A stretch of 64,000 bases of DNA from the NCBI GenBank assembly GCA_947034885.2, contig OX344757.2:6696001-6760000 (forward strand). Reading direction: 5' to 3'. The notes below the pieces were generated by a model that was not told the origin of the DNA, searched no databases, and worked only from the letters and a program-made list of their open reading frames with translations. The position numbers were made by a program, and so were the translations under genes. The stretch is from Thuidium tamariscinum (Eukaryota; Streptophyta; Bryopsida; Hypnales; Thuidiaceae). Positions 8,187 to 44,342 of this stretch are shown here, piece after piece; within the stretch, counting starts at the first letter, position 1; each line of letters opens with the position of its first letter.

Positions 8187-8476
8187 TAAGTTGGGTACCC
8201 CCGAACCACCACTTTTTGCAACTGTGTTTAGTTAACTTTTATTAGACTAGGCAAATTTTCATTGATTTTCTTTTTGACAAGTGGAAAGAGTTTGTAATGC
8301 ACCAATCAATGTCGCAATTGGATGCCATATGCAAAAGTTATGAAGGATCAAAGATTTTTTTGGTAAATATTCTAAAACCATTTCTTCCACATAGATATAT
8401 ATTGATTTTGGAGATGTCTACAAAGTGATGAAATTGATTTTGGGTCAATGGCATAGTTTTAGTTGTACCCACCTTA
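8187..8476 (-). mobile_element. Family Y MITE, diverged copy
   Basis: Ends are TAAGTTGGGTAC on the left and GTACCCACCTTA on the right. The interior (the GGCAAATTTTCATTG and GCAAAAGTTATGAAGG region) aligns with the reverse strand of family Y copies such as 42182-42474. It is about 290 bp long, non-coding, and more diverged than the other copies. A related right end recurs at about 33720-33785. Confidence 0.6.
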
Positions 8477-8508
8477 CTCAACCAATCAACTAAGGTAGGG
8501 CAACCCAT

Positions 8509-9240
8509 TAACCCTGGACTGCCGCCATCGCCATTTTGTGGCGTTTGGATGACAGTCCAGGGTCAAAAGAAGAGGTAAACAATAGTTTTTTCATCCACTT
8601 TTTTCAAATGATTTTTCATGTTCACTTATGAAGCATATCCAACTGAGATTTTAGTCTAACTAATGTTTGTTTTCATGTAGTTGAGAAGTAATTAGAGAAA
8701 ACGGATGGCCAAATTTGCCATTTTAATGTATTTTGAGAAATTGAGTAAATCTGAAATTTCTCCTTGAAAACAACATTTTTTGAATTTGAGGTCAACTAAT
8801 GAAATAGAGGTCCTCTACTCTAGTTTTTTCTCCAATTTGAATTTTGGCAAAATTCATAAAATTGAATATTTTATTGCAGTTTGAACTTTGGCTGTATTTT
8901 TAATGTCCACTGCATTTTAATTATAGATATAAAAGGCAAATCAATTTACACCATGATGTTTGTCACTGTAATTTTCACACATGGTGAAATTTTCAGATTT
9001 TTTGAGATTATTTTCTATTTGATATGAATTTTTCTTCAGTTTTTCTTCAAAAAATTTCAAAAAATACAATTATACTCAAAAAAATCTGAAATTTTTGTGA
9101 AGTACAGAGGACATGTAGGTTCATCTCTGAAAAATAAAATAAAATTTTTTCATACACATCTGGTTAGAAAATGGCAACAAACTGGGTGACGGACAGTGAT
9201 TCCTGAAACTAGTGGCTATAGGCCCGGCGTTTAAGGGTTA
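8509..9240 (+). mobile_element. Family W inverted-repeat element, copy 1
   Basis: About 730 bp, starting TAACCCTGGACTGCC and ending GGCGTTTAAGGGTTA, so the outer bases TAACCCT/AGGGTTA are inverted and a TA duplication is implied. It contains CGCCATTTTGTGGCG, an internal palindrome, near the left end. The interior matches 10282-11026 over nearly its full length, including the GGCCCGGC block close to the right end. Non-coding. Its right TA is shared with the left TA of the next element. Confidence 0.75.
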
Positions 9241-9841
9241 AGGTAGGTGCACCCAAAAGTGCACCGTTCCTAAAAGTGCCATCTAAGGCAAGAGGTCCTA
9301 TAACAGACCATCTAAGGGCTGAAACAGAATTTCAGGGAGGTAAAATCTTTAGAAATATTTTTCAGTAAATTTTCCTTGAAAAACAAGTAGAATTGACATC
9401 TAATTCATGTCATTTCATATTTTTCTAAGCTTTTTTGAATTAGTTATCAAATTTTGAAGTTGAAAGGGCATAGGGCTATAAAATGGTGCCCTAGCTACAA
9501 TGTACACTGTCAGTTGAAGGCTATGAAAAAGCAACATGTACAACAATGTATTGTACACTTAAGATAGGGCACCATTTTAGAACCCACTCCATTTAAGAGC
9601 CTTCTACCTTACAATCAATGTATATTTCTAATATGAGTGATGTATGCAAGTTGTAGATGGCACTTTTAGAAACAAACTTTGACCTTTAATAACTTTTGCA
9701 TATTGTATCCAAATGTTGTTGTTTTTGGTGCTTTGGAACATGCTTTTACTTGCCAATAAAACTTTATGAAAATTTGAACAACCTAATAATAGTAACTAGG
9801 CACAATATCAATAAGTGGGGCTTTTAGGTGTATCCACCTTA
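9239..9841 (+). mobile_element. Family Y MITE interrupted by a family Z MITE
   Basis: Outer ends are TAAGGTAGGTGCACCC (9239) and GGTGTATCCACCTTA (9841). The flanks of the inner element join to match intact copies at 17696-17972 and 40189-40473. Interior features shared by family Y are TTTGACCTTTAATAACTTTT, the stretch around GTGCTTTGGAACATG and CTAGGCACAAT. Non-coding. The insertion divides it at a CCATCTA sequence. Confidence 0.85.
9284..9611 (+). mobile_element. Family Z MITE nested inside a family Y MITE
   Basis: It begins TAAGGCAAGAGGTCC and ends GAGCCTTCTACCTTA, 328 bp. The other clear Z copy is 17043-17374 in the opposite orientation. At the insertion point the host reads CCATC-TA, then the element, then TA-CAATC; the uninterrupted family Y copy at 17696 reads CCATCTACAATG. 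The insertion therefore duplicated TA, as Tc1/mariner-type (Stowaway) elements do. Confidence 0.88.
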
Positions 9842-10281
9842 TGGGCAAAATTAGAAGTTTGCCCTCAAACAATTGTTGAAGTTTGTTTATTTTGTTCTAT
9901 ATAAAATCAAGTGTGGGAAACAAATAGAGTAATTGAAATTATACTTTTTCAACAAACTATGAATTTGTTATAAATTTTTGAAGTTTGTTGTCTATCACGG
10001 CCTCAAAAAGTTTCTAAATTAAGGTATTCTCATAGGATTATAGTAGTTTTTTTATACAAAAATAGTTTGTTCATATTGATTTATATTATCTTAACATCTT
10101 TTTCATGTTTTGAGGCAAATATTACTCCCTTTGTCCCACTAAAAACTTCAACCATTCTATAAATTAGTATTTATTGTATTTAACAACCTCGTGAAGACAA
10201 GTGAAATAATCTACAAGCATTCCTTTGGCCTTGTAAGCTTGGCCTTTGTCCATATTAGGCACCTTGTACTTGTTTCTTCCT

Positions 10282-11026
10282 TAGCCCCTTAGCGTGGACA
10301 GCGCCATTCTGTGGCGTTTGGATGAATTTGCAACAATGCACAGGGAGATTGCTAGCAATTTTTCATCCATTTCTTGGTGCTTGACCTTTCGAAAAGGATT
10401 GTGAAGAGTACCTAATTCATTTTGTAGTCATGTGAGTGTTTCTCTTCACATGAATTAGAAATTATAGAAAAAAACGGATCACAGAATATGTTATTTTCAG
10501 TGTATTTTTGGAAGTTCTTACTCCTTGCTTTAAATCTTAAATTTCTAAAAAAATACACGATATTTTTGGAATTTGAGCCCAACTAAAAAAAATGAAGGTA
10601 ATCTATTCTAGTATCTTCTCCGATTGGAATTTTGAAAGAAAAACATAATTTGAATATTTTATTGCAATTTGAACTTTATTTATATTTTCAAAGTCTTATG
10701 GATTGTAATTATAGAATGACACGGGTATTGAGTTTATACCGTGATGTTTGACACTAAAATTTTCACACATGGTGAAATTCTCAGATTTTTGAGATAATTT
10801 CCTATTTGATATGATTTTTCTTCACTTTTTCTTCAAAAATTCTCCAAAAAATATATTTTACTCAAAAAAATCTAAAATTTTCGAGAATTATAGAAGAGAT
10901 GTAACTTCATCTCTAAAAAATAAATGAAAAAAAATTCATACACATCTAGTCCCAAAATGGCAACAAAGTGAGTATTGGATACAAGGGCATGAAAGCAATG
11001 GTTATAGGCCCGGCATTTAAGGGTTA
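10282..11026 (+). mobile_element. Family W inverted-repeat element, copy 2
   Basis: About 745 bp, similar to 8509-9240 throughout. It has the same CGCCATTCTGTGGCG palindrome near the left end, the same CACACATGGTGAAATT stretch in the middle and the same GGCCCGGCATTTAAGGGTTA right end. The left end is more decayed (TAGCCCCTTAG). No coding capacity. Confidence 0.75.
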
Positions 11027-11289
11027 GACAATGGTGTTGACAATGGATTCAATGTCCACTTGAGCACTATGAAGATTTGTTCATGAAGTGGGCTAGATTT
11101 CTTTATTGCAAATATTTAAACTAGAAAACATGTTTCTAAATTCACATTGTTGTTATGAACTTTAGAATGATAGAGCTAGTAGCATTTACAAACTATTCAC
11201 AAATATGATATTTTTGCATTAGAAGAGATTTGGAGCCTTCAAAACAGTATTTTAAGACTCTTCCTTAAAATTGTTCCTATTATTGTAGA

Positions 11290-11620
11290 CTAGTCCACTG
11301 TTGGTCTAAATATTCAAATTTTTTCTTTCAAATTCAAAAAAAATTCAAAAATTTCAAAGAATATTAAGAAATAAAAAACGATTAAATAATATTTTGAAAA
11401 AATAATTTAAATTATCTAATAATTAATTTAAAACTTAACTAATTAATTAATTAATTAAGATTATTTGATATGATAGTTGCTTGACCATGGCAAATTCCTT
11501 TCATGGCAAACTTCCTAACATTCCTATAGTTCGAGAATTTATAGTCTTCTAAAAGCCTCAAATCTCTCCTAATGGCATGGATTTGGGATGCCTTAATGAC
11601 AATGCCTAAGCTAAAGATAT
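11290..11620 (+). repeat. Dispersed repeat family V, copy 1
   Basis: A very A/T-rich tract (AAAAATT runs and ATTAATTAATT) is followed by a segment that recurs in two other places: GTTGCTTGACCATGG, then CATTCCTATAGTTCG and a block ending CTCCTAATGG. Matching segments lie at about 12850-13080 and 43290-43640. No frame is conserved between copies. It may be part of a decayed retroelement; ends were not found. Confidence 0.55.
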
Positions 11621-11639
11621 CACATAGATCATTTTAGGG

Positions 11640-12840
11640 ATGAATTACTAGTTCTTGATTGCAAATATTATTGGCACAATTAGATTGAATGTACTGTCAA
11701 TCCTTCATTAGGAAGATTTTTTAAGATTTTTTTAGTGGGACAAAAGTAATACTAATTATATAGTAGCATATTGGGCTTAGAATATGGTTACAATAAGGTC
11801 TTGACATTACATTCACTAGTTTTAAGAAATTAATGTAGTCACATTAATGAATAAGATGACAGTTGATTTTTTCGCCAATCTAAGTTTTTGCCTATTCTAA
11901 AGGTGATATAATGTTAGTTATGGACTATTGGAACAACACACTTTAGATATCATAACAAATCTATACTTTACCAAAAACTATACAAGAATTCACCCTTTCA
12001 ATGACAAATTGTAGTAGCATTTGAAAGTTGTGAAGAACACTAGAATTTGATTCCAAAGCTAACATTTAGCATTTGTACTAGGGTTTATTTTTTTTGGCTT
12101 TCTAATGTGAGAATGCACCAAAAAAGATTATTTGGTAAAAAACTAGCAACAAAATATGAAGTTTTTTGCTAAAGAAATTTGACTTACAAAAAATTCTTAG
12201 ATGAAATTGTGTGTGTGTGTGTAAAGATACATTTCTCAATTTTTGAGCATCTATGGGAGCCATTTGATGTGTATGATATTCAAAAGCAAAAGAATTTTGA
12301 AGCTACGTACACTATTGATTTTGAGTCATTATAGTCTATTCTTTTCATCTACATTTTGTCCATTGACATCCACTACAAGTTTTCAAGAGCAACCAATGGA
12401 AATTGAATCATTTTGTGCTTCAAAAGTACATCTACTTACAGGCGTGTAGTGGAATATCTAATACTTACATCTTTTAATATTTGCAAACCATTCCCCAAGT
12501 ATTTGAAATTTTTAAAAAAATTGTCTTTCGGCTTGTAGAACTTGAAGTCATATAGGCAAAATTAAAATTAGCCCTTATTTTTTAGCACATAGATAGAATA
12601 ACTTTTCTTGAAAGTTATTTTGTTGAAAATTTTACAATTTTTGCAAATTATCTAAGTCAATACTTGAATAAGCCTAGAAATGCCAAATATATACATCTTT
12701 GAATTGTTTTCAAAAAGACTCAAAACCATTCACCAAAAAAAGAGCCTCCATGATGAACTCAATAGATGTCTTTTTAGGGTTCCTCGAGATTGTTTCGAGG
12801 CTATTCTCCAAAACTATTCCTTCTATAGTCAACCAACCAT
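11640..12840. other. AT-rich stretch without a gene
   Basis: A (GT)8 microsatellite lies near 12210. The two frames at 12243 and 12680 translate to low-information peptides without recognisable motifs. Confidence 0.5.
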
Positions 12841-12849
12841 AGCTAGTTT

Positions 12850-13080
12850 CATTTTTAAAATAAAAAATTAATTAATTAAAAAAATTTAAGTATAAAAGAA
12901 ATAAAAACTGATTCAATTCTTTTTCAAAAAAATAAATTTTTAATTTAAAATAATAATAAATTAATATTATCTAATGTGAAAATCTCTCGGCCACATCAAA
13001 TTGCTCACATGGCACAATCTTGGCATTTCCACAATCTCAGAACTTGCAATCTTCGGAATGCCCCAAAAATCATTTAAGGC
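12850..13080 (+). repeat. Dispersed repeat family V, copy 2
   Basis: Same order as the copy at 11290: an A/T-rich tract, then a CTCGGCCACATCAAATTGC segment corresponding to CTCGACCACATCAGCATCG of the copy near 43530, then CTCAGAACTTGCAATCTTC. Similarity appears to extend upstream to about 12770. Confidence 0.55.
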
Positions 13081-15335
13081 AATTAGTAACTAAGTATATT
13101 CACTATTATAAAATACATATTATTTTGTAGAATATTATTGGCAAGTGAAGAGGATTCTAATATACTTTAGCATCTATTATTGAACCATTGTATGAAGAGG
13201 TTATAAAATTTCAAAATATTGTGAGAAGGTATATGAAAATTGACACTAGAATCTTCTAAAACAATTCTCATGTCTAGATTGTATACATTTTATGCAATCA
13301 ATATCTAGACTTTAGTGTTGCAATTTATTCTAAATGTAGGCGTTACATTTTAGATAGTGTGGTTGTGGGTGCACATACTTTAACTCCTAAAGTCCCAAAG
13401 TCTTCTCAATGGACTCTTGAATGGGATTTTAGGTAGGCTTGTCTAGCCCCAATTTTGTGAATGATTTTTTGAATTTTTTTTGAAAATAGGAAATTACATT
13501 AGTTTTGTGGAAATCTAATTTAATATATTTCAATTAGTGCTTGAGAGCAAAAGTTATGCTACCCTACATCCAAAAATCGATTTGTTAGACAATACAAAAA
13601 AAACACAAAAAATTATTTATTAGATAATACAAAAAAATTACAAAAAATTGAACTTTTCTAGATTTAATTTTTTTCCCCAAAGATTACATTTTTATCTCTA
13701 TGTAAAGCTTTGATTCATTCCATTTGGATTAGCGATATGAAAATTATAGAACTTTGTGTTTTTTAGGCAATCATTGTATCACTTGAAAAAATAATTGATT
13801 TGATTCATCACTAAATTCAATTTTTGCAATTTTTGCAAAATAAAGTTCTTCACAATTGACTTTGATTTTTAGAAAAATCTCACCAATGAGATTAGTATAT
13901 TTTAAGTCCTTTTCAAAACCATTAACAATTTTTTTCGTCAATAGTTTTTTTCATAACAATTAACAAAGTGAGTATGAAACTTTTTTTTGTGTCCAAATGG
14001 TGCCTAAAAAAATTTTAACCCCACTTTCGAAGCCCAACATCGCAGGCTGGGAAGAGGCGCGATGTTGCGGGCTTTAAAAAGCAGGCTAGGAGGAGGCACG
14101 GTGAGGTGCCATTAGAAAAGTTGACATTTCACTTGGAGTTTGGAAACTCCAAATGACTTTCCAAGTTCCACTCTTTATTACCATGTTTTTGGAAAAGTTC
14201 TACCCTAACTAGAGAGCACTTTATAAATAATTCTAATGTTTGTGAACAATTCTAGTCTCTCAATCTATAGGCCCTTGCTTAGGCACCTTCAACAAAGAGC
14301 CACCCCAACCTGTAGTCAAGAGCACTATCTCCTCTGCCAAGGAAAACTTTACAAAAAAGAAACCATATTCAAGGCCCATGGGGAAGAAAAGAAAATTGAG
14401 ACAATATTTGAAATAAGGTATTCATGGTATCTTCCTCAATACTCATTGTTCTCTTGATATAAGGCTTGAGGGGCACAAAATGTCTTTTAACCTTGTTCTA
14501 CTAACCTAAAGGTCAAAATTTCCAAAAGCTTGAGCAATTTATTTGTTCATTTTTTCTTGAGATTGGATAAAATGTAAACACATGATCTTAAAGTTCTTAT
14601 TGAAATTGGATATCTTCAAATAAATTTAGATTATTTGACCACATATTTAGTAGATATTTTAGTTTGAAGTTTTATTTGGTCAATGAAAGAACAAGGTAGT
14701 GCACTTTGAAGGAGCATATCTTGGTGAGAATATTTTGAAATGATGAGCTTTTGTGCTCAACAAAAGAGAAGAAAGTTGAGAATGCTCATCTAAATTTTCA
14801 CAACATTTTGAGCATTTTTCAATTCATGGTAGAGCTTGCAATGCACAATGGTTACTAAATTGAGAGTAGTGTTTGTAAAAAATACAAGAATGGGACACTT
14901 ATCTTCTTCTTGAGTTCCTTGGATCTACCATTTTCAAGGTGGATTTGCTTTTATTGAGGTAGGCAACAATTACATTGGTTGGTTGACTTTTTAGTGCGTC
15001 CTTAATCAAACCCCAAGAATGATTTGTTAATTACAATACACCACTCAACTTTAATAAATTCCACAAGGTGGATTTTAACTTGGAATTTGATGAAACTACT
15101 ACCATTGGATTTATGATGCAATTTTTTTTAGTAGTTTTTTTATTTGTAGAAAAAAATTAAAATTTGAGAATGGGTAGTTCAAAAAAAAGGGGTAGGGACT
15201 AGAAAATGGCCAACAACAAGAAAATGGGTGCTTGAGTCATTGGAGGTCAAAGGTTAAGTCTTTACATTAGGGGGAATTGAACTCAAGGAGTTGCTTTGAA
15301 AATGAAAAATTTTAGGTAGAAAAGAGCCTTTCCAA
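13080..15335. other. AT-rich stretch with one small GC-rich hairpin
   Basis: No gene recognised. At about 14031-14073 AGCCCAACATCGC pairs with GCGATGTTGCGGGCT around a 15-nt loop, the only GC-rich spot in about 2 kb. The rest is low-complexity DNA. Confidence 0.5.
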
Positions 15336-16185
15336 TACTACAAAAAAACAAGGGTATAAATTACTAGTAGGTGAGTGCAAGAAACACTTGTCCTATTTTG
15401 TGTCACACTACGTGTGCTGATCTGTTTTTTGGCCATAACTTTTGTGTTTTATCTCCAATTGACTCAATATTTGTAGAGAAGGTACTCATAACTATCATAA
15501 ACCTTCCCTAATTTTTTCATAATTTTTAAAAATAATTTACTATCCAAAAATAGACCCCAATTGGATGTCACACTTTGTAGTTTAGAGTTTTTTAGTACTA
15601 TGGAGTACCTTTTTTTAATGATTTTAAGATGAAATTTGGATGAGATGGTCTTCTAATAGACTCCTAGCTCTCCAAGGCAGGATTTAAAAAAATAGTTAAT
15701 TTTATGTGGTGTGGAGGTCTACAAAGTGATCTCCCTTCTACTTGTATTTTGAAACATATAAAATATTATTTTGGTGGATTTCTTGGTGAATGACCATCTC
15801 CATAAAGTTGTTGCAAATGGCCACTTTTTATTTTTTGAAAATACTTATTTTTACTGTTTTTCCCTAATTAAAACATGAAGGTATGTATTTTCTGGAGGTT
15901 TGGCACTTTTCAAGTTCTCCTACTTAGAGAATTTTTTTATCCATTTCCTTCAGTGAAAACCTTCATCTTAGAGGTATATACACTATTCATATTTTTCAAA
16001 TTAAAAAAAAATTAAATTTCTAATTTTAAAGTACTCCTGAAAAAATCAACCAAACGCAACAAAATTGGCAGGTGTTTCTTGCAATCACCCTTGTCCACAA
16101 TGATAGCAAAATGATGGTTTTGCAGTCATTGTTGTCCTTACAGTCATTGTGGACAAGTCATATATACCCTTGTTTTTTTGTAGTG
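15336..16185. mobile_element. Non-autonomous CACTA-like element, 850 bp
   Basis: The left end TACTACAAAAAAACAAGGG and the right end CCCTTGTTTTTTTGTAGTG are inverted copies; the left CACTA motif carries one C-to-T change. A second inverted pair lies inside: GCAAGAAACACTTGTCC on the left against GTGTTTCTTGCAATCACC on the right. The 3-bp direct repeat CAA flanks both ends (15333-15335, 16186-16188), as expected for CACTA insertion. No long frame, so it depends on a transposase elsewhere. Confidence 0.8.
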
Positions 16186-16188
16186 CAA

Positions 16189-17042: not shown

Positions 17043-17374
17043 TAAGGTAGAAGGCTCTTAAATGGAGCGGGTTCTAAAATGGTGCCCTATCTTAAACGTA
17101 CGGTAGTTGTACATGTTACTTTTTCATAGCCTTCAGCATTGTAGTGACAGTGTACATTGTAGCTAGGGCACCATTTTACAGCCCTATGCCCTTTCAACTT
17201 CAAAATTTGATAACTAATTCAAAAAAGCTCAGAAAAATATGAAACGACTTGGGTTAGATGTCAATTCTACTTGTTTTTCAAGGAAAATTTACTGAAAAAT
17301 ATTTCTAGAGGTTTTACCTCCCTGAAATTCTGTTTTCAGCCCTTAGACGGTCCATTATAGGACCTCTTACCTTA
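17043..17374 (-). mobile_element. Family Z MITE, second copy
   Basis: Begins TAAGGTAGAAGGCTC and ends GGACCTCTTACCTTA, 332 bp, in the opposite orientation to the nested copy at 9284-9611. The two are similar along their whole length. The middle is related to family X (24004, 44045), sharing the segment around ATATGAAACGACTTGGGTTA. Non-coding. Confidence 0.85.
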
Positions 17375-17695: not shown

Positions 17696-17972
17696 TAAGG
17701 TAGGTACACCCAAAATGGCACCTGACCTTAAAGCGCCATCTACAATGTGCATACATTTCCAAAATCAGTCATGTACCCAGACTGTAGATGGCACTTTCAA
17801 AAACAGACTTTGACTGTTAATAACTTTCACATACAGTATCCAAATCCTCTGTTTTTTGGTGCGTTGGAACATACTTTCACTCACCAACAAGACTGTATAA
17901 AAATCTGAACAGCATGATAACACAACCTAGGCACACTAAGAATAAGTGGCACTTTTGGGTGTACCCACCTTA
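17696..17972 (+). mobile_element. Family Y MITE, intact copy
   Basis: 277 bp with ends TAAGGTAGGTACACCC and GGGTGTACCCACCTTA, a 16-bp perfect inverted repeat. It contains CCATCTACAATG, which serves as the empty-site reference for the nested insertion at 9284. A TA flanks each side. Confidence 0.88.
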
Positions 17973-19127: not shown

Positions 19128-19724
19128 TAAGGAAGAGGCACCAATTGCCAACCATGTCCAATGCTCAATCAATAAGGTGAGCTATTTCCAACCTTAAGAT
19201 AGAACTCAAATTTGCAATGAATTAAGCATTTTAAAGTAGGAAGTAGTGAGCCTAAGAGAATGATTCTTGAATGATTAAAATTAGATGATTTTTAGATATT
19301 GGCTATTAGTGAAGAATAGTTTTTGGCTCCCAAAATTCACAATAATTACAACTTCGAAAATACAATTTTGATAATTCTCTATCCCCATATTTCCTATCTT
19401 CTTACATTCGAATAATTTCCATCACCTCATACTACTCATGATTTACTCCAAAATTGCTTAAACCTTTACATACTAAGAAGCCAAGAATTGGGCCTCACAT
19501 TTTTTAAGCAATTTTGAAGAGTTTATATGGAGCTTTTCATTTATTTTGATAATTATTTTTCTTAAGTCAATGCATACAATGTTCTTCATTCAAGCTAATG
19601 ATGTTAGAAAATTTCCATTTAAATTATTTTTTCTACAATATAATCAATCAAAGTTTACAACTTAAAACCATGAATTTTTAGTATATAAAGGGCTAAATGA
19701 TTAGCTATTGGTGCCTCCACCTTA
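19128..19724 (+). mobile_element. Family U inverted-repeat element, copy 1
   Basis: Ends are TAAGGAAGAGGCACCAATTG and TAGCTATTGGTGCCTCCACCTTA (written in two parts: TAGCTATTGGTGCC, then TCCACCTTA), about 597 bp. Interior segments such as CCAACCATGTCCAATGC and TTCACAATAATTACAA recur in the copies at 22704 and 39596. Non-coding. Confidence 0.7.
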
Positions 19725-22703: not shown

Positions 22704-23118
22704 CAAAGTAGAAGTACCAATTTTCAACCATGCCCAATATCCAACTTATAATATAAGCTATTTCCAATGTTAGCTTGAAATTTAGGCTTGGAATGTGTGT
22801 TTTTTGTTCTTTTCAAGGTTGAGACTAATAATGTTATGACACATGTTCAAAAGTAGTAAGTAAAAAAATAGAAAGCAATAAGCTAGAAAATAATTCTTGA
22901 TTGATTGGAATTGTAAAATTCTAGACATTGATTATTGGTCAAGAGTACTTTATTGCTCCTAAATTCACAATGATTTCAATTTCAGGGATAAAATTTTGAG
23001 AAAATTTCTATTCCCATATTTCATATTATCCTACATAAGAAGTATTTTTACTAGTTCATACTCCTAACCATTTACTTCGACATTGTTTAAATGATTGGCT
23101 ACTAGTGCCTCTACTTTA
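22704..23118 (+). mobile_element. Family U inverted-repeat element, copy 2
   Basis: About 415 bp with decayed ends (CAAAGTAGAAGTACC and TAGTGCCTCTACTTTA). The interior has GAGACTAATAATGTTATGAC and TTCTTGATTGATTGG, matching the copy at 39596-40021. Confidence 0.6.
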
Positions 23119-24003: not shown

Positions 24004-24301
24004 TAAGGTAGGGGGTTGTAAAAGCGACCTTTTACCAGCTGATTTGCATTTTGGGGAAGCTAAACTCCTTAAAACAATTTCTAGTAAATTTTCGTGGTAA
24101 GAAAAATAGAATTGGCATCTAACCCAAGTCGTTTCATATTTTTTGGACCTTCATGGAATTAGTGATGAATTTTTGAAGTTGAAAACACAGTGGTTTCTAA
24201 AAGTGACCCCCTCTTGAAATGTACACTTCTGGTACATGTTAGAGGCAAAATTTACCAAATCGCTTTTAGAGACAGGGTTGCAATTACAACCCCCTACCTT
24301 A
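24004..24301 (+). mobile_element. Family X MITE, copy 1
   Basis: 298 bp with ends TAAGGTAGGGGGTTGTAA and TTACAACCCCCTACCTTA, a perfect 18-bp inverted repeat with TA at both boundaries. Very similar along its length to 44045-44342, which suggests recent activity. Non-coding. Confidence 0.9.
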
Positions 24302-24357
24302 GTTGCATTTATAAGAGCCTTGCAACCACTCATAATGTGCCACAATTGCTTTGGGAA

Positions 24358-25909: not shown

Positions 25910-28900
25910 ATGGTGCTGCTGATCGTAGCAGGCACGCTCGGGGTGCTCTTCTACGGTCGATGGCTTTGGTCGAGAGGAAATGAAGGGAAGAAGGTCGGAA
26001 GTGCTGTGGAGTATGATCCACGGCATGCGTTGGACGAGGCTGCTGCAAGGCGGGCGGCCAGGGCGGATTTCTATCGGAGCCACAAGCATTTCGACCATAC
26101 TTGCCCGCCTGTGTGTGAATATTTTCCCCGTTTTGCCCGAAGTTTTGTTCCAGCACTTCCTCTTTCAGTTTTTGCATGCCTATGATTCTGCATTTCTTGA
26201 GTTCAAGCCCGCATTCTGTATCTTTGACTTCTGTTTGACAGCGCAGGCTAAAGATTTTCGTGAAATCCGAGGCGCAGTATTTTGAATGTTTGGTCTTGTT
26301 GTGTGCAGCAAAGCGAAGCAGAGAAGGAGCTCTCTGTCACCGAGGTGCGTCGCATCGAACTCTCCGCTTCTGATTTTTTGAATTTGACTGTTTTCGTAGA
26401 GTCTGGTGCTTGCAACCGGTTGTTCTGTTTTGGATTAGAATTTTGGTGTTTTCTCAGAGTCGGGTGCTTACTGCCGGTTTTCTTTTTGGGTTCGAATTTT
26501 GCCGTTTTATTGAAGTCTGATGCTTACTAGCACCCGTCCTTTTTGGATTAGAAGTTTACCGTTTTCTCAGATTCTGAAGGTTACGACCACTTCTCTTTCT
26601 TGGATTTGAATTTTGCCGTTTTCTTAAGAGGCTGATGCTTACAACCGTTTGTTCTTTTGGATTTGAATATTGCCCGTTTTCTGAGAGTCTGATTCTTGCA
26701 ACCGGTTGTCCTTTTTTGGATTTGAATTTGCCGTGTTCTGAGGGTCTGGTGTTTAGCAGTACTGGGTTTCAGAATTTGTAGAATGTACGAGGTGATTTGA
26801 TAGTAGAGCTTCATGATGAAAAGTAACTGATACCGAGTCACGGTATTGCTTAGGGATGTTGTTTCCATAACGAGTCTGTACTTTCGTATTATTGGATGTA
26901 ACCTAAGTGGTTGTTAGATCCTGTTCAACCTTGCTCAAGTAGGGGTCTTAAATGAAAGACACTGTAGCTCTTGAGAAGGACAATGTTATGAAATATAATC
27001 ATGTTCACCATATCCAATGCTTGGCTGTGTGGAGAAATAGGCTCCAATGAGGTTAGGAGATGCATTCTGTGGTACTAGCCTTCAGTTGAATGCTGATTGA
27101 GATGTGTACAAACGTCTGGTCAGTGAAAGTGTCACCATTAACCCTTCAAGGTCCGAGCAACTGTGAATGGGTTGCTTTTACTAAAGGAATGTCACATCAT
27201 GAACTTTAATTGGGTCATACTTATTTCCCATCTCCTTCATCGAGGTAATGGCATTGTATTGATTGAGTGCTGTGGATGTCGCTTTCCACAAGGACTAGTC
27301 TTCGCGCTGATTGCTTTGTTACATGCTAAGTAATCACTACCTGGGGTGTTGTTACTTCATTGGTGAATTTCTCTATTGGTGATGAATGTTGTGAAAGGGC
27401 ACTCGGGAATCCATCTTAATTCTTTCCAACATTCATTAATCCAAGGTTTGAATTCCAGTAGTTCTTGTTGATTAGGGGTTCTCAATGTTGGTGGTTTATT
27501 CTTTGGTTTTGAAGAAAACGATTTGATACTATTGATCGTATTTTTCATTCACCAGGGACTGCTATCACCCAGCTCAAGGAGGTGAATTTTGATTTTAAAT
27601 TTGAAAAGCAGTGATCTCATCTCCCTCTTTGTAGGATCTCATTTCCAACTTCATCGGATTTACTGCTCCATCTTGACACCCAGTATTGTTTGAAAACACA
27701 CGTTCAAAGAAAGTTCCACAACAGGTGGTTGCCTAGTATGGTACTCACTCTGCTTGATTTTCTTGCCCTTTTTGCAGACGTATGTGCTAAACTCCAGGGG
27801 CGTGGAGATTTTTGTCAAGAGTTGGGTGCCTGCACAGTCCAAGCCCCATGGCGTGGTGTTTCTCTGCCATGGTTATGGTGATACGGTCACCTTTTACGCT
27901 GAAGGTTTTGTCACTGTCGCCATTCTTGTGAATGAATGTCAATCTTTCTATGTTTGTTAAAATCATACCTTGAAATAGAGCGACTTACACTGGATGGATT
28001 GAGCATATGTTCGCTTTGAAGGTTTTATGAGTTATTCAAAGGTGTACCTAAGTTCATTTCCATTCCCGTGATCAAGAGTTTTTTTACAGTTACTCTCTCT
28101 AGTGCAGACCACTTTATTTCAACCCATTTTCTTATTGCACCGATCGTTCTTTCTCTATAGAATTCCACCTGTTTAAAATTTTATGACTCAATGACGACAC
28201 TATTCACGCTCCTATCGCACTTCAAGGACACGTAGGATGACCTCCTTATTCTCACCAGAACCCACACTAGAGTAGAGCTTTCTGTTGCTAATTTTCTACA
28301 TTGCTTTTGTTGCAAAACACTGTTTGAATCAGGGTTTTTTCTTCCATTATGAGGAATACAGTTTAAGTGTCGGATCACTTCTATTTGGGAGGTTGAGTGC
28401 ATGAAAAAATCATTCAAAATTGATGAAAATTGGTTAATTTTGTGGGCGAGGGACGATATTTCAACCTGAATTTTGCTGTTTAAAAATAAGGTATGTCGTG
28501 GGGGGTGTATTCCCACCTAATAGAGGACTGGTCTAAATTGGGCTGGTACTAACCTAGGAATTTACTGCAGGGGAAGCAAGGACACTGGCGTTAGCTGGGT
28601 ACGCGGTTTACGGCATGGATTACCCCGGATTTGGCATGTCCCAAGGATTGCATGGCTATGTACCTAGTTTCGACAAGCTCGTGGATGATGTCATTGAGCA
28701 GTACCGCACCATCAAAGGTAAACTCAATCTAGAAAAAATGAATTATGTCCCTGTTTTTCAAAATGGCACATTTCGGAGCGAAACTGTGGCACTTAAACGC
28801 CCGGAGTTCTGAAATTGTGTCAGATTCACTGAAATGTGCCATTTTAATAAATTTGAGGATAAGAGCTCATTTGTGCAATGAAAATGCTTATTTCATGTGC

Positions 28901-34600: not shown

Positions 34601-37600
34601 TGGTCTCCTAACTATGCTCATGGCCTTAAATAGCAACTTGGAACCTGTACTTCTATTCCAAACCCTAAGACTCTTAATCAGGGTGTTTTTTTAGGCGATA
34701 AAAAGACTAAAAGCACCAAAAAATTATCTTCCGCACCAAGCCTTTAGAAAAATTTGGAGGAAAAGAAATTTAAAAAGCCAAATGTAAACTTTCACTCACA
34801 CCCTAGTAGCCACTATCTTGACAATGCCTACTAGGATTTTCCACCCTATTGCCACCTCTCCAAATGTTGATTCGACAACTTTGCATCTTCAGTTGCCTAA
34901 AATATACCAAAGTTGGAGATATAGGTATAGATTGTAGCCACATATACAAGGGCTTCTTCATCCTGTCACTAGATTTTTTTACTTCCTTTCAAGCTACAAT
35001 TTTCTTACTCTCAATTTTATTTGGCTTTTCCTACCAATTGCAATCTTTGAGGTTGCATTTTTGTTGTAGAAACCATTTAAAACTTCATGCACATGAATTA
35101 GGAAGATATTGAATTTTACAGCCCAAGTACATGAATGAGTTGTAGTTCATGTGCTTCAACTTGTGAGTTGTAGTTTTCATAATCCATTTTGCACCACTCT
35201 TTGAAACATGGTTGCCCTATTTTGCACCAATCTAAGAGTTGTAGTCGGTGAAGATGTTTTTTTGGTTTTTTATTTTGAAGCCATATAGCTTACACTAATT
35301 TCTAACTTGGAGCCAAATTTTGTACCAAAAGTAAATTTGAGTGTCGCCTAACCTCAACCACTTACTTCTCACCTGGAGCCCAAATCCAGATTCTCTTAAA
35401 ATTTTAAAAAAGAAACTGCTCTCAATACCAATGGCACTCCTCACTTATACTTGTTTCATAGACACTTAGGTATGAATTTTTCTTAACTCCTTTTTATCCT
35501 TCTTAGAATACATTTTTCTCAAGCTTCAAGTTTTTTTTCCCTAAACTCCATGACCTTCAATCTACATCACTAGTTCAAATGCACTAGATTTCATTTTGTA
35601 TCAACCAATCTAATTAGCTTTTAATTTGTATCATCCACTATAATCAATCAATATAATCAACCAATCTACTAGTGTACAAACTAGATATATAATCATAATT
35701 ATCCTTGTGACTTAATGTATTTGTTAAACAATAAATTTTCTTTGTGATTACTAAAATCAACAATCTCTATGTTTGAAAAACTACTTTATAAAATTGTATT
35801 TGTCACCAAATATATATTTTGATCTCTAAACAAAACCACCATAAGAAACCAAAATACATTTAATACATATTTTGAGACCCTATTCCTATCCCTTCTAATG
35901 TGATAGGTTGGAAATGAATCCATCTATTGTCTCCGGTATTTGCAAGAAATAGTTATTGTTTTTAGCTCAAAATGACCTATTTCAATGAATCTCGTGACTT
36001 TTGGAATAAATTTTTTTAAATAAAATAAATATATACAATTTGAAAAGCAATGAGAATATTGTGTCTCTTAAAATTCAAACCTATGTAAACTTAACTCTAA
36101 AAGTTATGCATAAAATAAGTACAATGAAAAATACAATGAAAATAGACACTTTCATGTTTGATTTTTTTTTAAATAATAAAAATTCAAAAAGATAAAATTC
36201 AAAAAATTTGTATTTTATAATTTAAAGATGCTATTCTTCAACCATTTTCATCTTTTGGAAAAATTAATCGTGTTCTCTACACTTGCACAAAGGTAGTGCT
36301 TTTTGACCACATGTGGAAGTTGGACAATTTACTATCTTTACAAAATCTCTTTGCAGGCTTGTGTAACTTTAGTAGAAGTCCTTGTATGCCAATTTGAGCT
36401 TTAAATTTGTATTTTTGGATCAAGAATAGGACTAAAACCTCCCAAAATGGCCAAGGTAGATATCCAATTGGGGGCTGTTTAAAAATAGGAAAATAGTTTT
36501 CAAAATTTTCAAAAAATTGAATAACGTCTAGAACTATTATATGTACCTTTATTTCAAATTTTGTATGAATTGTAAAAATGAAGCAAAAGTTATGAGTAAA
36601 AAACTACTTGTCCAAGTCCAAGAGGACAAAAAATAGGACAAAAGTTTCTTACAATCTTCTCCTATTATTAACTCTTTTTTTTCCTACTTCCCTTCTAAAT
36701 CCTATGAAAAATTTAAATTAATTAATCAAAATATAAACATGTATCACTCCAAATTATTGAATACCAATTCTATAATACATAGCCTTGAAAAAATTATTAT
36801 TATTTTTGATAGGTCATGCCTACATCCTAAAAAACAGCCTCTATGCCCAAGATATTAGATTGTCCAACTAATCTTTGGGATGTCCTAAAAGAAAAAAAAT
36901 TACTTTAAGAAATGTGATTGTAAAATATGACTAACAAAAAAAACAAAATTGCAATATATAATTGAAGCAAAAAATTATAATTAGGTGCTTGTAGAAATAG
37001 TATTTTTACCTAATTGGAAAAACAACCAAAGAGGTAGGGTTCAAACACTAGGGAGGTAATTTGCTAGGTTTCTTATACTAAGTCGTCACTTATCAACTTA
37101 TAATAATCTATTGGTTTCCTTCACTCATGTACATCAATTGATCTCCGATTTAGACCTTAACTTGTCTATAATTAATTCTCAAATACATCATTAGCTCCAT
37201 ATCCATTTGACTCCACAATTTCCAATTGTTTACTACAATGACACTCCTCTCTAATCTTTTAATTATCTTTCATTTTATATTTTCTAATTTCTCTCTTTTG
37301 ATATTTTATTATGAATTTATTTTTATATTTTATACAAACTCAAGTATGATAATTTCAATTTTTCTCTTTCAACCATATCTCCTTCACAATAGGTTTCTCT
37401 TGCTTCATCCAATTGGTACCAAATTCCACTCAATAAAGCTTCTACTCGATATTCTCACACAATACTCAATACACGCATACACCAACTTCAATATTTTTTT
37501 AAAAATCTCTTCTTAAATTAAACTCCAATTGTCTCACATCACATCTCATCACATCACATCAATTATCTAATCTCTAATTCTAACTTTAAAGTTTTATTTC

Positions 37601-38427
37601 CTTCTTCCCAAGGAAGGAGCTTCAGCTTCTCTCCCGCATGAACACTAAAATCCAATTTGGTCTTTTCCCAAACTTATGCCTCTTGCAATTGCTCACAAAA
37701 AACTAACTAGTGGTTCCCCCATTGGAAGTTTGATTAACCATCCAAACCGCTTGGCTTAACTCCCAATTGGGCTATTTTCACACTATTTCTATCTTATTGG
37801 CTTCTATCTTATAACTACAACCTATTTGGCTAACTAAATCCAATCTAATTGGTAATTCAAAATGTTTTTAGCAAAATTTTACCAATTTGGTTTCTATTGT
37901 CTAAATCTTGTGTTCACAGTGCTCTCTAAATGTATTCCTTGCCTAAAATTTTCCTTAGGTTGCTTAAAAAAAATGTCTCTTTTATAAATATATGACTAGA
38001 AAAATATGATTGCAAAATATGAAGCAAAAAAGCATGGCTAAGTACTCTCCAAACATGTTCTCCCACATGTTCTTCACCTAAAATTTCTCTTGGGCTACCC
38101 CAAAAGAAAAAAATGTCATTTATATAAATACATGATTTCAAAATATAACTAAGGAAAAAATGTAATTAGAAAATATAACTAGGCATTTCCAAATCACGTT
38201 TCTTGTTCTTTTCTATGAAATACTTTGGCATTCCCAACAAGCCTATATATTATACACCCATGAAGTATAAGGCCAAAATATGACTTGTGGTCATACTTGT
38301 AATCATATTTTTTCCAACATGTTGGCCTCTAAGAATATGATTGTGAATAGTCACCAATAATCCCAAATCATATTTTCATAGTTATAAAATATCCATTTTA
38401 TTGTAGTGTTTTCAATTTATGCCTTGG
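31633..38427. other. AT-rich intergenic region, no gene seen
   Basis: About 6.8 kb without any recognisable protein, including an (AT) microsatellite near 32356. About 33720-33785 ends GTACCCACCTTA and resembles the right end of the family Y copy at 8187-8476, a probable fragment. Frames near 34849 and 37226 are low-complexity, hydrophobic by base composition. Confidence 0.55.
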
Positions 38428-38887
38428 TAAGGTAGAAGAACCATTACTCGCTAATTCAAACTATTTTTGAGAAAATTTTGGAGCAACATGAGGTCATGGA
38501 AATTTTTCACACTTATGAAAGTAGGAAATATAGGGATAGCAAAATTTTCAGAATTTTATTCTAAAGATTGAGATTACTATGAATTTTAGTAGCCAAAAAG
38601 TGCATTTTATACATTGAAAATGTGGCAATTTCTAGAGTTTTCAAATCCCAATCATTTTAGACATATTTTCTTGCTCATTTCTTCCTATTCTCTTTGTTCA
38701 CTACTACACAACATGTGTCATAACCTTAGTAGTCCCAACCTTAAAAAAGACCAAAAAAACACAATCCAAGCTTTGGTTGGAATTCTCTTTCAACCTTGGT
38801 TGGAATTCTCTTTCAACCTTGGTTGGAATTAGTGCATTTCTACAAGTTGAATATTGGATGAGGTTGACAATTGGTGCTTCTACCTTA
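38428..38887. mobile_element. Inverted-repeat element T with TAAGGTAG ends
   Basis: About 460 bp, left end TAAGGTAGAAGAACCA and right end TGGTGCTTCTACCTTA. The ends resemble family U but the interior does not. It holds a 23-bp tandem repeat near the right end. Confidence 0.65.
38773..38831 (+). repeat. 23-bp tandem repeat, 2.6 copies
   Basis: Unit TTGGTTGGAATTCTCTTT plus CAACC, with two identical full copies from 38773 and a partial third. GGTTG and CAACC in each unit can pair as a short stem. Confidence 0.9.
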
Positions 38888-39263
38888 GGCAAACAATGTG
38901 ACGAAAAGAGGCAGCACACCATGTTGGATTAATTTTCCTAACCCCCCTCATCAGTAAAAATCAAGAACCGTTGGATTTGAATTTTAAAAAATCCCACCCC
39001 CCCTCCAAGAAAAATCAAGAGCCATTGGATACGGATACGAATACAGAATATGGGTATAGTATATGAGTACAAAATACAGGTAGGAAATACTGGTACAAAA
39101 TATAGATATAGAATACATATACAGAGTATGAATACATAATATGGATATGGTATTACCCCATTTGTCCCATAAGCATTGTAACCAAGCCCACCCTATGAGA
39201 AGTATAAGAGGGGTGGGAGGGGGTTTCAAAAATAATAAGTTTAGTATTCAAAATTTAATAATT

Positions 39264-39403
39264 AAATCAGATTGGGAAGGGGGGGGTGCGAAATAATTCA
39301 ATTTTTAAATTTTTTTAGTTTTTGAGCTCATTGTGACAAACTTTGTCACAATGAGCAATGAGCTCAAAAGAGGCAGTCACTGTCTCACTTCCAATCTGAT
39401 TTA
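39264..39403. repeat. Two-level palindrome, 140 bp
   Basis: Outer arms AAATCAGATTGGGAA (39264) and CTTCCAATCTGATTT (to 39403) pair with one mismatch. An inner perfect hairpin GCTCATTGTGACAAA (39326-39340) / TTTGTCACAATGAGC (39342-39356) has a one-base loop. G runs of eight or nine follow the left arm and the sequence just past the right arm. Probably a small MITE. Confidence 0.75.
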
Positions 39404-39595
39404 AATCATTTAGATTGGGAGGGGGGGGCAAACAATTTTCATTGAATATGAACCACAAAAGAAATTGCTATTGACATAATGTGTAACCATTTTTTGTAGC
39501 CAATTTCTCATAGTTTAAGAAATGTCAATTTCTTGTTGAGACTTGTATACAACAATTTTCCTCAACTTTGATACCAAGGCTTTACTTTAAACCGT

Positions 39596-40021
39596 TAAGG
39601 TGGAGCCACCCATAAGCAACTAGTACTCCATCCCCAACCTATAGAAAACATTTATTTTGAGTAAGGTAGGAACATATCTCCAACCCAAAATTGGAATGCC
39701 TATTTTTTCTTTTTCAAAGTTGAGACTAATAAGTTCATAACACATATCCTAAACTAGTGAGCAAGAAAATAGGAAGTAATGAAGAGGAAAGGAGTTCTTC
39801 AATGATCGTAATTGAAAGAGTCTAAACATTGGCTATAGGTCTACAACACTTTTTGCTTTCCAAATTCATAGTAATTTCAATTCATACAATAAAATTACAA
39901 AAGTTTTTGCAATCCTTGTCATTTCTATCATTGCACCTCCAAGAGTATTTGCTTTGCCTTCTACTACACTAGGTCCTGATTAGAATACCTTAATTGGTCG
40001 GTTATAGGTAGTTCTACCTTA
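39596..40021 (+). mobile_element. Family U inverted-repeat element, copy 3
   Basis: 426 bp with ends TAAGGTGGAGCCACCC and TAGTTCTACCTTA (approximate inverse). The interior matches the copy at 22704-23118 along most of its length, including GAGACTAATAAGTTCATAAC. Confidence 0.65.
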
Positions 40022-40188
40022 GCCAAGATCAAAATAAACTCAGGAAATCTCTTACAACACATGACTTTCCTTCAAAGTCCATGAATATACTTTTTGGTTT
40101 AGGGTCTTTTGGGGCATTTAGGGATTAGTCTACCTTAGCTTTGAATTAGGGAGTTGGAGATAGCTAAGCAATTCTTCAATTTAGAAGT

Positions 40189-40473
40189 TAAAGTGGATAC
40201 ACCCGAAAGCACAACTAACCTTAAAGGCTTAAAGATCCATCTATAGTCTATGTATATTTTCAAAATTAGATACATACATAGACTATAGATGGCGCATTCA
40301 AAAACTAACTTTGACCTTTAATAATTTTTGCATATTGTATCCTAATGTTGTGTTCTTTAGTGCATTGGAATGTGTTTTCACTTACCAACAAGACTATATG
40401 AAAATTCAAACAATCTAGTAATAGTAACTAGGCACAATTCTAATTTGTGGCAATTTTGGGTGCACCCACCTTA
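40189..40473 (+). mobile_element. Family Y MITE
   Basis: 285 bp with ends TAAAGTGGATACACCC and GGGTGCACCCACCTTA. The interior is similar to the copies at 9239 and 17696, including the TTTGACCTTTAATAATTTTT segment. Non-coding. Confidence 0.82.
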
Positions 40474-40572
40474 TTACGAGCCAAATGATAATTGGTCATG
40501 GTCAAAGACAAATAATTCAATCTTATAAATTGTGACAATGGACATCAATATGTGTGATTGCAAAATAAAATT

Positions 40573-40845
40573 TAACCCTTAAAGGAAGGACATATAACCA
40601 CTTGTTTCAAGCCTCATTGTCCATTACTTAGTTTGTTGCCATTTTCAAACTAGATATGTATAAAAAGTTTTATATTTATTTTTCAAAGATGAAGTTACAT
40701 GTCTTCTATACTTTACGAAAAAAACTTAGATTTTTTTAATGAAAATTGATTTTTATGTGAATTTTTGAAGAAAAAGTGAAGAAAAAATCAAATCAAATAG
40801 AAAATTATCTCAAAATATCTGAAAATTTCAGTATGTGTGTATAGT
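40573..40845 (-). mobile_element. Family W element, truncated copy
   Basis: It starts with TAACCCTTAAAGG and matches the right half of the family W copies in reverse, through the CAAATAGAAAATTATCTC and CAGTATGTGTGTATAGTG segments, then similarity stops. The other end is missing. Confidence 0.65.
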
Positions 40846-40887
40846 GGGGTCCCAATCAAAATGGCGTTTCGGGATCCGTAGTCGAAA

Positions 40888-41407
40888 CAATTTCAACTCT
40901 ACCAACTTTGACAGCCTCTTCAGAGCTCAAAAATTGATATTTTACTATGAATTTTTTTAACATCATCATCTATAAGTTAATAACATCCATGAAAAATTTC
41001 AAGGCCAAAAGGCTTACCAAAAAGAAAATATTCAAAATCTACGAACATGTGTAATAGTGAAATTTTTTTCACTACTTTCAACTTTGACACCCTCCCAAGG
41101 ATTGAAAGATTTTTTTGCCATGAAATAAACTTTAAGTTCTTAATAGGTGTAAAAAATTTCAAGGCTAACAGATTAATTTTAAAAAAGATATTCAAAATCT
41201 CCCAACATGTGTAGTTTTGAGAAAATTTTCACAATTGCCAACTTTGATACCCTCTCAAGTCTCAAGGGCAAAAAATTGGTTTCTTACCATGAATTTTTTT
41301 TTGTGAAGTCATCTCTATGTTGATAACATGTATTTCAAATTTCAAGTTCAAATGAATTACAAAAAAAAAGATATCTAAAATCTCAAAATGTTCATGAAAA
41401 CTTTTTT
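40888..41407 (+). repeat. Short satellite-like array, three units of about 165-180 bp
   Basis: Each unit contains CCAACTTTGA(C/T)A(C/G)CCTC, a TTTACTATGAATTTTTTT-like tract, AAAATTTCAAGG(C) with variation, and ATTCAAAATCT(C/A)(C) before ACATGTGTA. Units start near 40888, 41072 and 41232. The array directly follows the broken end of a family W element. Confidence 0.75.
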
Positions 41408-42181
41408 ATGGCAAAATTTAGTATTGCCATACATCCTTGCCATCCACTAATTAACATTACAAGTTGTTTAAATAGTAGATTTGAAATCCAATTAACTATC
41501 TGGATGTCATATTCTATACCCCAAATAACACTAAAGGTAACTCATAGTACAAAAAGTAGAAAAATGTTGAAAATAAAAAATGCAACAAATAGTACAATTG
41601 TTTCTTGCAATTACTGCTAGCATGGATTTGGCTTCAATCAATTGAATGATAATTTTCAAATCATTGCAAATTACATTGGTTGTTTTCAAATCATAAATCC
41701 TTTTATTTTATTTCAAGGATTAAATAAGGTCCATTGCACTTTGTATCCCGATGTCTATAAACACTTATCTTGCATTCAAGCATTTTATTTATATACCAAT
41801 CCTAATTGGTATCTTATAGGGGTAGCAAGTGAACAATTTGAAAAAGATGGAACTTTGATTCCTAAACAGTTTTGATTTCATGCTAAACTTTTTCATTACT
41901 ATTCTCAACTCCGTCTTTGATCTGTTAGAATGATCTACTTGGCCTTCAAACGATAAAGGGCTATATTTGAATCAATTCTTGTCAAAGATGCAATATAATT
42001 AGTAATTTCAATTTGAAATTGTTTCTTATTACATTCCATGAATCTAACAACTCCATTGGTGCCATTTGTGATTTGGAGGAAATTGGCCAATGAAAAATTG
42101 GTATTTCAAGAGGTAACCTAGTACTTTCTTTTATTGAGAAGATGCAACCAACAACCACAAGAAACGAAAATATGCAAGGAA

Positions 42182-42474
42182 TAAGGTGGGGACATCCAAA
42201 AGTGCCACTTATTCATACTGTGCCTAATGATTGTTATTAGCTTGTTCAGATTTTCATACAATCTTGTTGGCAAGTGGAAGCATGTTCCAAAGTACCAAAG
42301 AATGTAGGATTTGGATACCGTATGCAAAAGTTATCAATGGACAAAGTCTCTTTCTGAAAGTGCCATCTATAGTTTGTGAACATGACTGATTTTGAAAATG
42401 TATGTGCACTGTAGATGGTGTTTTTAGAAACGTGGCGTTTTAGGAACGTGGAGTTTTAGGGTGTACCTACCTTA
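42182..42474 (-). mobile_element. Family Y MITE
   Basis: 293 bp, ends TAAGGTGGGGACATCC and GGGTGTACCTACCTTA, in reverse orientation relative to 17696-17972, with all interior blocks in the same order. Near the right end a short duplicated segment (ACGTGGCGTTTTAGGA, then ACGTGGAGTTTTAGG) is specific to this copy. Confidence 0.83.
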
Positions 42475-43289
42475 TATCAATAGGAAGAACTCAATGAATT
42501 CCTTGAATACTGTAGAATTGACCCATATCTAAAACTAGATTGTTCTGTTTGCTTGTTAAAATGAAATCTCCAAGCCTGTACATGCCAGTCATGTTCTTAG
42601 TATTACTAGAAAGTCCTTGACAAGGAGTGTGGTAAGGACTTTGCTTTGTAACATTTGAATTTGTGTTGTAAAATTTATGGAATTTCAAAGTTTTTATGAA
42701 ATTATAAATTAAAAAGTTACTTTCACTCTTATTTTGACTATAACAACGGCAAAAGTCACAACAGTTTTTACTTAAGATAGATCACCATATTGTCATCAAA
42801 ATTAAAACAAACTCATTCTAGGCAGAAATGTAATGGTCATGTACATATGAAAACTCAAATGTACACCACCATTACAATTTTGTTCACAATGAGCTTGCTC
42901 CCATTTTGACCATGACCACAATGGAGTGGTTTACCTTACTTCCCAGTTCCCACATCCAAATCCTTTCCCATGATTTGAAACCTCCATTGCCTTCCGTTTC
43001 ACATGTTGCAAAAAAAAATTAAAAATTAAAAAAAAAAAAAAAAAAAAACTTTTGTTGACGATTGGTCCAGTTCGAAGACACTGTAGCCAGACTCGCCATC
43101 GATCTAGGCAAGTAAACTCTGCCAAATTTTATTTTATTTTATTTTATTTTTTCAACAAGAAACTCTGCCAATTTTTTGAAACCTCAGTCAGTCGCTGGCA
43201 CTGTACAGTACTCTTCCTGGGTGATGGGTGACCCATATGACGGTCGGGGTGAACTGGCCCCCAGCTCGCCGACCCCAAGTCATTCCAGG
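42475..43289. other. Intergenic with simple repeats
   Basis: Poly(A) tract at about 43028-43048 and (ATTTT)n at about 43130-43158. The segment from about 43165 is GC-richer, but no gene is recognised. Confidence 0.5.
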
Positions 43290-43640
43290 ATTTCTGGGCC
43301 CCAAGAAGACCGTTTCAGGGGTGTTCCCTGAAACTGTTCCCACTGCTGCAGACCAGCCCCCTGCTGCTCTGAATTTTTGAATTTTGAAAAAAAAAATTAA
43401 AATTTTTTTTCCTAGGAAACTTTAGAATATGTTAAAAAGAAATAAAATGATTTAAAAAATAATTTAAAAAATAATTAAAAAATAATTAAAATCAATAGAT
43501 AATTGATCTTTTCTGACGTGGCAGTTGCTCGACCACATCAGCATCGCGTTGACAATGTTTCCAATGCGTTCCCAGAGTTTGGGAACTCGCAATCTTGTAA
43601 ACCAGCTAGAAATCCTCTTATGTAATGCTTGATTAGTTCA
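43290..43640 (+). repeat. Dispersed repeat family V, copy 3
   Basis: The least decayed copy: a GC-rich part with CCGTTTCAGGGGTGTTCCC, an A-rich tract, then CTGACGTGGCAGTTGCTCG, CACATCAGCATCGCG and GGGAACTCGCAATCTTG. The same order is seen near 11290 and 12850. Possibly the remains of a retroelement. Confidence 0.6.
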
Positions 43641-43800
43641 CCTGGAACATTGACTTAGAAGGCTAATTTTGGGCCTCCGGTTGCAAATATGAATTCAAAA
43701 TTTGAAAATATTATCATACATCGGAAATAAAAAATTTCAGTGTTTTCCTGAGTGGTCGAGCAAGGAGGTTAGTTTACCCCAATCCATCTATACCTTAGAA

Positions 43801-43838
43801 CAAGTAGTTTGTTTTGTTTTGTTTTGTTTGTTTGTTTG
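43801..43838 (+). repeat. (TTTTG)n / (TTTG)n microsatellite
   Basis: Five-base units turn into four-base units at the right. No other feature. Confidence 0.85.
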
Positions 43839-44044
43839 TCACGAGGAGATCTCCCGACCTATGTATTCCCCAACTGTATGCCTAGTACCATCGAAAAGCT
43901 CTTGGCAAGAAGGGGTGCGCGGGCTTGATTTTGTGACATTTCGATGCATGGTGCGAAAGTGATGGATTTTTGAGTTATATTTGATTTAAAATTTTTTGTT
44001 TTACCTTTGTTTTGCCTGTGGCAACGGCACATGGCACACTAAGG

Positions 44045-44342
44045 TAAGGTAGGGGGCTGTAAAAGCGACCCTTTACCATCTGATTTGCAGTTTGGGAAGC
44101 TAAACTCCTTAAAACAATTTTTAGTAAATTTTCGTGGTAAGAAAAATGGAATTGGCATCTAACCCAAGTCGTTTCATATTTTTTGGACCTTCATGGAATT
44201 AGTTATGAATTTTTGAAGTTAAAAACCCGGTGGTTTCTAAAAGCGCCCTCCCTCCTGAAATGTACACTTTTGGTACATGTTAGAGGCAAAATCTACGAGA
44301 TCGCCTTTAGAGACAGGGTTGCAATTACAGCCCCCTACCTTA
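44045..44342 (+). mobile_element. Family X MITE, copy 2
   Basis: 298 bp, ends TAAGGTAGGGGGCTGTAA and TTACAGCCCCCTACCTTA (perfect 18-bp inverted repeat). Closely similar to 24004-24301 and of the same length. The five bases TAAGG are duplicated at the left boundary (44040-44049). It ends about 790 bp before the BAH gene start. Confidence 0.9.

Follow-up and report, generated by a model that had tools for sequence, protein, structure and literature searches.

Short non-autonomous elements with AGGTRG ends in the moss Thuidium tamariscinum probably carry the ends of a large pogo-type transposon clade

Stowaway elements end in CTCCCTCC, and Emigrant elements, the miniature inverted-repeat transposable elements (MITEs) of a pogo element in eudicots, have ends of the form CAGTAAAACC... 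The MITEs considered here lie in a 64-kb window (C9:6696001-6760000) of the genome of the moss Thuidium tamariscinum; they begin TAAGGTRG or nearly so, end CYACCTTA, and probably carry the ends of a large clade of pogo-type transposons with a DDE_1 transposase domain. They share the TA duplication, the MITE structure, and the high copy number with the Stowaway/PlantMar system, but the transposase of the latter is a mariner DD39D enzyme, whereas the clade described here is DDE_1 with DD35D. According to the accessible text of PMC7325037, PlantMar was not found in bryophytes. In the case of the moss Tc1-like elements PpTc1 and PpTc2, the accessible text of PMC4054914 gives CAGT...ACTG ends and DD34E; the TA duplication is common to both systems, and similar TACAGT-ended DDE_3 elements exist in the Thuidium genome, but their ends and catalytic triad differ and they are not the partner of the AGGTRG MITEs. 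For pogo in land plants, a 2020 survey (PMC7386202, as far as its accessible text goes) names Lemi, from 23 eudicots, as the only family found, and PMC7325037, within the same limit, gives two pogo sequences from Selaginella and a dicot clade. The moss transposons resemble Lemi/Emigrant in being pogo in a land plant and in the pairing of a pogo element with MITEs, which is probable in the moss; however, Lemi carries HTH_Tnp_Tc5 with or without HTH_ABP1_N (PMC7386202, accessible text), in contrast to HTH_psq plus HTH_Tnp_Tc5 in a moss copy at locus L055. In the accessible texts of the open-access literature searched, neither AGGTRG-ended MITEs nor moss pogo were found described.

The end-sharing MITEs are a real genome-wide feature. 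In the window, TAAGGTRG occurs 29 times against 3.43 expected, and exact TAAGGTRG...CYACCTTA pairs 150–700 bp apart number 11, with a Markov null mean of 0.02; TAAGGTAG gives six window pairs, and its 59 other letter permutations give at most one each. Throughout the searched genome (363 Mb in 19 contigs), exact inverted pairs were counted on one strand, the pattern being self-reverse-complementary, with the reversed pattern over the same spacer ranges as a control. The counts are 2992 against 26 for spacers of 260–290, 811 against 32 for 291–321, and 1275 against 21 for 385–415, the last class being defined by ends and spacer length alone and not by interior family. The real element number is higher, because mutated ends escape the exact pattern. 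Among 15 copies fetched from the 260–290 class, 13 belong to the family called Y below (71–96% mutual identity), and the other two are of a different type, 77% alike. The original prediction, made from the window sequence, had named elements with common TAAGGTRG/CYACCTTA termini unlike those of usual Stowaway and had proposed a genome-wide search for such inverted pairs. The named elements were recovered, one of them (22704) with decayed ends, the ends are AGGTRG and not the Stowaway motif, and the pairs are enriched as foreseen.

The transposons bounded by these ends are a pogo-type DDE_1 clade. With the DDE_1 profile (PF03184), the best 150 of 303 candidates were scored and 19 loci were sampled; in a second search, with the domain of one copy as query, the best 150 of 331 candidates were scored, and these relatives are 40–100% identical to the query domain. 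By a strict rule, exact TAAGGTRG or TATGGTAG on both sides, nine of the 19 sampled loci carry the ends, and in eight of the 19 the two ends also match each other (TAAGGTAG or TATGGTAG), against none of 30 loci with a DDE_3 domain (Fisher p 1.7e-4). The remaining sampled DDE_1 loci have single end-like matches or none, and the stretch at L057 stops before a second end. At C2:36400500-36404917 lies a copy of 4418 bp that carries TATGGTAGGAGGCT at either end and an open frame of 926 codons; L057, which is on a different contig, matches this copy with 99.3% identity over 4276 bp, its own frame containing a stop. Such identity between two copies on different contigs points to recent movement of this pogo group. 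Among the scored matches (best 150 of 303 and best 150 of 331), none lies inside the window, in agreement with the earlier statement that no fitting transposase is present there; the DDD/DDE gene with the same ends that the prediction suggested looking for was found elsewhere. Its term Tc1/mariner-like stands in the wide sense that includes pogo, but not in that of Tc1-type DDE_3; pogo is counted inside or beside Tc1/mariner, depending on the paper (PMC7325037, PMC7386202, accessible texts).

At the protein level, HTH_psq, HTH_Tnp_Tc5, and DDE_1 are all above the Pfam cut-offs in L055, and in L056 HTH_Tnp_Tc5 is just above and HTH_psq below; these two are the only clade N-termini examined. PF03184 is above its cut-off in all eight proteins scanned (seven from the clade plus L054), and the spacing between the second and third aspartates is 35 in 8/8 clade domains. 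The features of the pogo superfamily are thus present: a DDE_1 domain with three aspartates, inverted repeats around the gene, and a TA duplication, the last being seen on the MITEs and not on a full-length copy. The accessible text of PMC7386202 gives the combination of HTH_psq, HTH_Tnp_Tc5, and DD35D as the mark of Fot/Fot-like pogo. The moss clade agrees in DDE_1 and DD35D, in the two helix-turn-helix domains of L055, in the TA duplication, which the survey lists for 50 Fot-like elements, and in a length within the Fot-like range of 1.2–5.2 kb. It differs in its inverted repeats, of which only ~15–20 bp are alike in the sampled copies, whereas most, not all, Fot/Fot-like elements have 40–60 bp; it also differs in host, the Fot-like elements listed in that text being from fungi's relatives, protists, and algae, and not from land plants. 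The clade appears to resemble Fot-like pogo, as a match of features and not as tree-based membership. A PDB sequence search with the L055 protein gave no match at E 0.01.

The interiors of the window elements were compared by BLASTN, with 16 bases trimmed per end and a threshold of E 0.01. They form three groups, Y, X plus Z, and U plus T, and no similarity between the groups was found at that threshold; of the five families proposed originally, the shared ends hold, but the interiors amount to three families. The elements, in window coordinates, are as follows.
8187..8476, family Y MITE with a mutated left end (TAAGTTGG); end pair, interior 69–70% to other Y copies
9239..9841, family Y MITE split by a Z element; end pair, aligns with other Y copies once the Z element is removed
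9284..9611, family X/Z MITE (Z type), inside a Y element; its empty site keeps a single TA
17043..17374, family X/Z MITE (Z type)
17696..17972, family Y MITE; end pair, 277 bp, as in the commonest genome-wide class
19128..19724, family U/T MITE; end pair and interior similarity
22704..23118, decayed family U/T copy, ends CAAAGTAG / CTACTTTA; interior 71–74% to U
24004..24301, family X/Z MITE (X type); end pair, and L054 contains a paralogous empty site (one TA; 89% over 246 bp)
38428..38887, family U/T MITE (T type); end pair, 70–74% to U copies
39596..40021, family U/T MITE; end pair, falls in the 385–415 length class
40189..40473, family Y MITE with a mutated left end (TAAAGTGG); end pair and interior similarity
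42182..42474, family Y MITE, opposite orientation; end pair, 81% to Y 17696
44045..44342, family X/Z MITE (X type), inserted in TAAGG-TA-G; end pair, 93% to X 24004

Behind the outer TAWGGTAG, which is common to the clade, bases 12–15 vary between transposon groups. They are GCTC-like in L055, C7:17388018-17392703, C5:20964663, C1:30185502, and C9:18454547, CACC-like in C10:12963831-12968507, C1:29776439-29780249, C5:17439203, and C2:25116180, and GACC in C1:52685288. In a small tree of eight clade domains plus L054, with one clade domain a 128-aa piece and one partial, the three GCTC copies fall together (0.822), and a split at 0.977 sets them, along with L056 and L054, apart from the other domains; two CACC copies pair up (1.000). 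The end classes appear to follow the transposase tree, in part only. Bases 9–36 of 24 MITE ends (12 window elements) were scored against 22 transposon ends, with shuffled ends as a control. The best class is CACC for 10/10 Y ends, GCTC for 8/8 X/Z ends, and CACC for 5/6 U/T ends, one of these being tied with the third class. The strongest matches are those of Y ends to the C10 copy, the right end of which is 81–91% like many Y copies over 20–35 bases, the first 32 bases of the end being involved. A further stretch of this right end, 119–197, also matches L044:2912-2990 (80%). In the C7 copy, positions 126–178 of the left arm are collinear with 132–181 of a Z-type MITE at L055:4794-5125, with a score of 43 against a null maximum of 29 (of 1160), which hints at common descent.

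The best explanation, to which we give a probability of about 0.8, is that the MITEs are non-autonomous elements carrying the ends of this large pogo-type (DDE_1, DD35D) clade, and that each family is probably moved by its own subset of the transposases. The element unit is TA-(AGGTRG...CYACCT)-TA, with the TA duplicated at the target. The N-terminal HTH_psq and HTH_Tnp_Tc5 may read the subterminal bases, the DDD domain would cut beside the conserved outer AGGTAG, and the excised element would be pasted into a TA. The outer bases are common to the clade, and bases 12–15 (GCTC-like or CACC-like) vary from one sister transposase to another and from one MITE family to another; each family is therefore most likely moved in trans by the sister transposases of matching class.

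Several points weigh against this explanation. The end classes were named only after the ends had been inspected, and the 95% level of the shuffled ends is passed by just 10 of the 24 MITE ends. In the small tree, the CACC-type C10 copy falls apart from the rest of its class. The GCTC-class transposons with two ends start TATGG or TATAG, whereas the X/Z MITEs start TAAGG, which implies that the exact X/Z partner is missing among the sampled transposons. When 19 ends of 10 transposon copies, with the first 36 bases excluded, were compared with 29 MITEs (1102 comparisons), no homology to MITE interiors beyond ~35 bases was found except for a single match at a score of at least 38; with one comparison in 1102 reaching that score, the idea that the MITEs arose simply by deletion from the sampled transposons is unsupported. 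Furthermore, a loose end rule (at most one mismatch per 8-base end and 11/16 bases alike) passes 10/19 DDE_1 loci and also 8/30 DDE_3 loci, and loose end matches therefore mean little.

The alternative that survives best, though it is unlikely, is that the transposase of one pogo subfamily reads nothing beyond the outer AGGTRG and mobilises Y, X/Z, and U/T alike. The outer eight bases are indeed common to all families, but the inner end bases vary between families in step with the transposon groups, and the genome contains many diverse transposases. Several sister transposases would fit better than a single one, because the inner end bases form classes that partly follow the transposase tree. 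The single transposase for all families in the original prediction is not the best fit, since of the ends only the outer TAWGGTAG is shared and bases 12–15 vary in parallel between transposon groups and MITE families.

It is much less probable still that a Tc1-type (DDE_3) or other transposase moves the MITEs and that the pogo copies merely resemble their ends. The profile PF13358 has 48 matches in the genome, a TA duplication fits Tc1/mariner as well, and the transposase searches covered DDE_1 and DDE_3, with MULE, hAT, PIF, and piggyBac outside them. However, in the 30 DDE_3 loci fetched, the inverted repeats that best flank the domain mostly read TACAGT... or something else, and none of the 30 has an exact TAAGGTRG/TATGGTAG to either side of the gene as a pair, on which grounds Tc1-type DDE_3 was rejected as the MITE partner. 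Two apparent exceptions are not termini: the TAAGGTAAAAA pair in L017/L018 sits in a longer inverted repeat, the outer flanks of which match too, and TAAGGTGG in L037/L038 is internal to TACAGT-ended elements. In the DDE_3 elements L017 and L018 the inverted repeats extend well beyond 150 bp, in contrast to the short TACAGT-ended elements that this genome also contains.

Of 33 flank pairs tested, 5 allowed a filled site to be compared with an empty one; the Z, X, and Y types are all represented, and one TA remains in nearly every case. No such comparison for U/T was found among the 33. Since the empty sites keep one TA, the target duplication of the X, Y, and Z types is TA, and the TA boundaries described originally are borne out for these types, there being no U/T case. 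The left flank is TAA and the right flank TTA, as would suit PIF/Harbinger (Tourist-type) elements with a 3-bp TWA (TAA/TTA) duplication; such elements are scarcely credible, because the two flanks form an inverted and not a direct repeat, and the empty sites of the X, Y, and Z types keep only TA. The X MITE (44040–44052) and a full-length pogo copy (L055:190-210) have both landed in TAAGG-TA-G, which repeats the sequence of their own end; the genome gives 180 matches to the nested motif TAAGGTAAGGTRG and 83 to its reversed pattern, a mild excess.

Other features of the window were also recorded. The 54-bp stretch at 52034–52087, bordered by TAAGGTAG and, opposite it, by CTACCTTA, is either a very small element or chance. 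A dispersed repeat has three copies ~78% alike (8802–9240, 10590–11026, and 40572–40867) and terminates at TTTAAGGGTTA, in one copy exactly at the start of Y 9239. Six tandem copies of a 56–58 bp unit, 60–85% identical to the first, occupy 26384–26729. The window genes, FKBP, S33 hydrolase, BAH, and a CACTA-type DUF4218, fit a plant; the last belongs to CACTA-type transposase remains at 61284–63644 on the minus strand (DUF4218 E 1.1e-32, DUF4216 just below the cut-off). Elsewhere in the genome, a single gene (C4) carries the LEAFY C-terminal domain, and the LEAFY SAM domain has its one strong match there; the gene reads KMRDYVHCYALH...GAWCQACY, with an aspartate and a cysteine at positions where these residues are the moss type. 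Five weak LEAFY SAM matches (30–44 bits) lie at C9:9824638, C1:35710485, C8:9874880, C1:42521344, and C2:21540582.

Pogo is reported as unimportant in land plants in the accessible text of PMC7386202; with at least 150 DDE_1 matches and, over three length classes, more than 5000 short elements with exact ends, this moss is an unusual host for it. In the pogo clade, MITEs that might have passed for Stowaway-like gain a probable partner, and sister transposases with graded ends offer a set for testing the evolution of transposase/end specificity. More tentatively, at somewhat under even odds, a Fot-like pogo lineage may have radiated in the moss to hundreds of transposase copies, with end classes GCTC, CACC, and GACC behind a fixed AGGTAG, each with its own MITE swarm; the short ends and the place of the C10 copy in the tree weaken this reading. 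If true, such a radiation would provide a natural series for the joint divergence of transposase and recognition ends.

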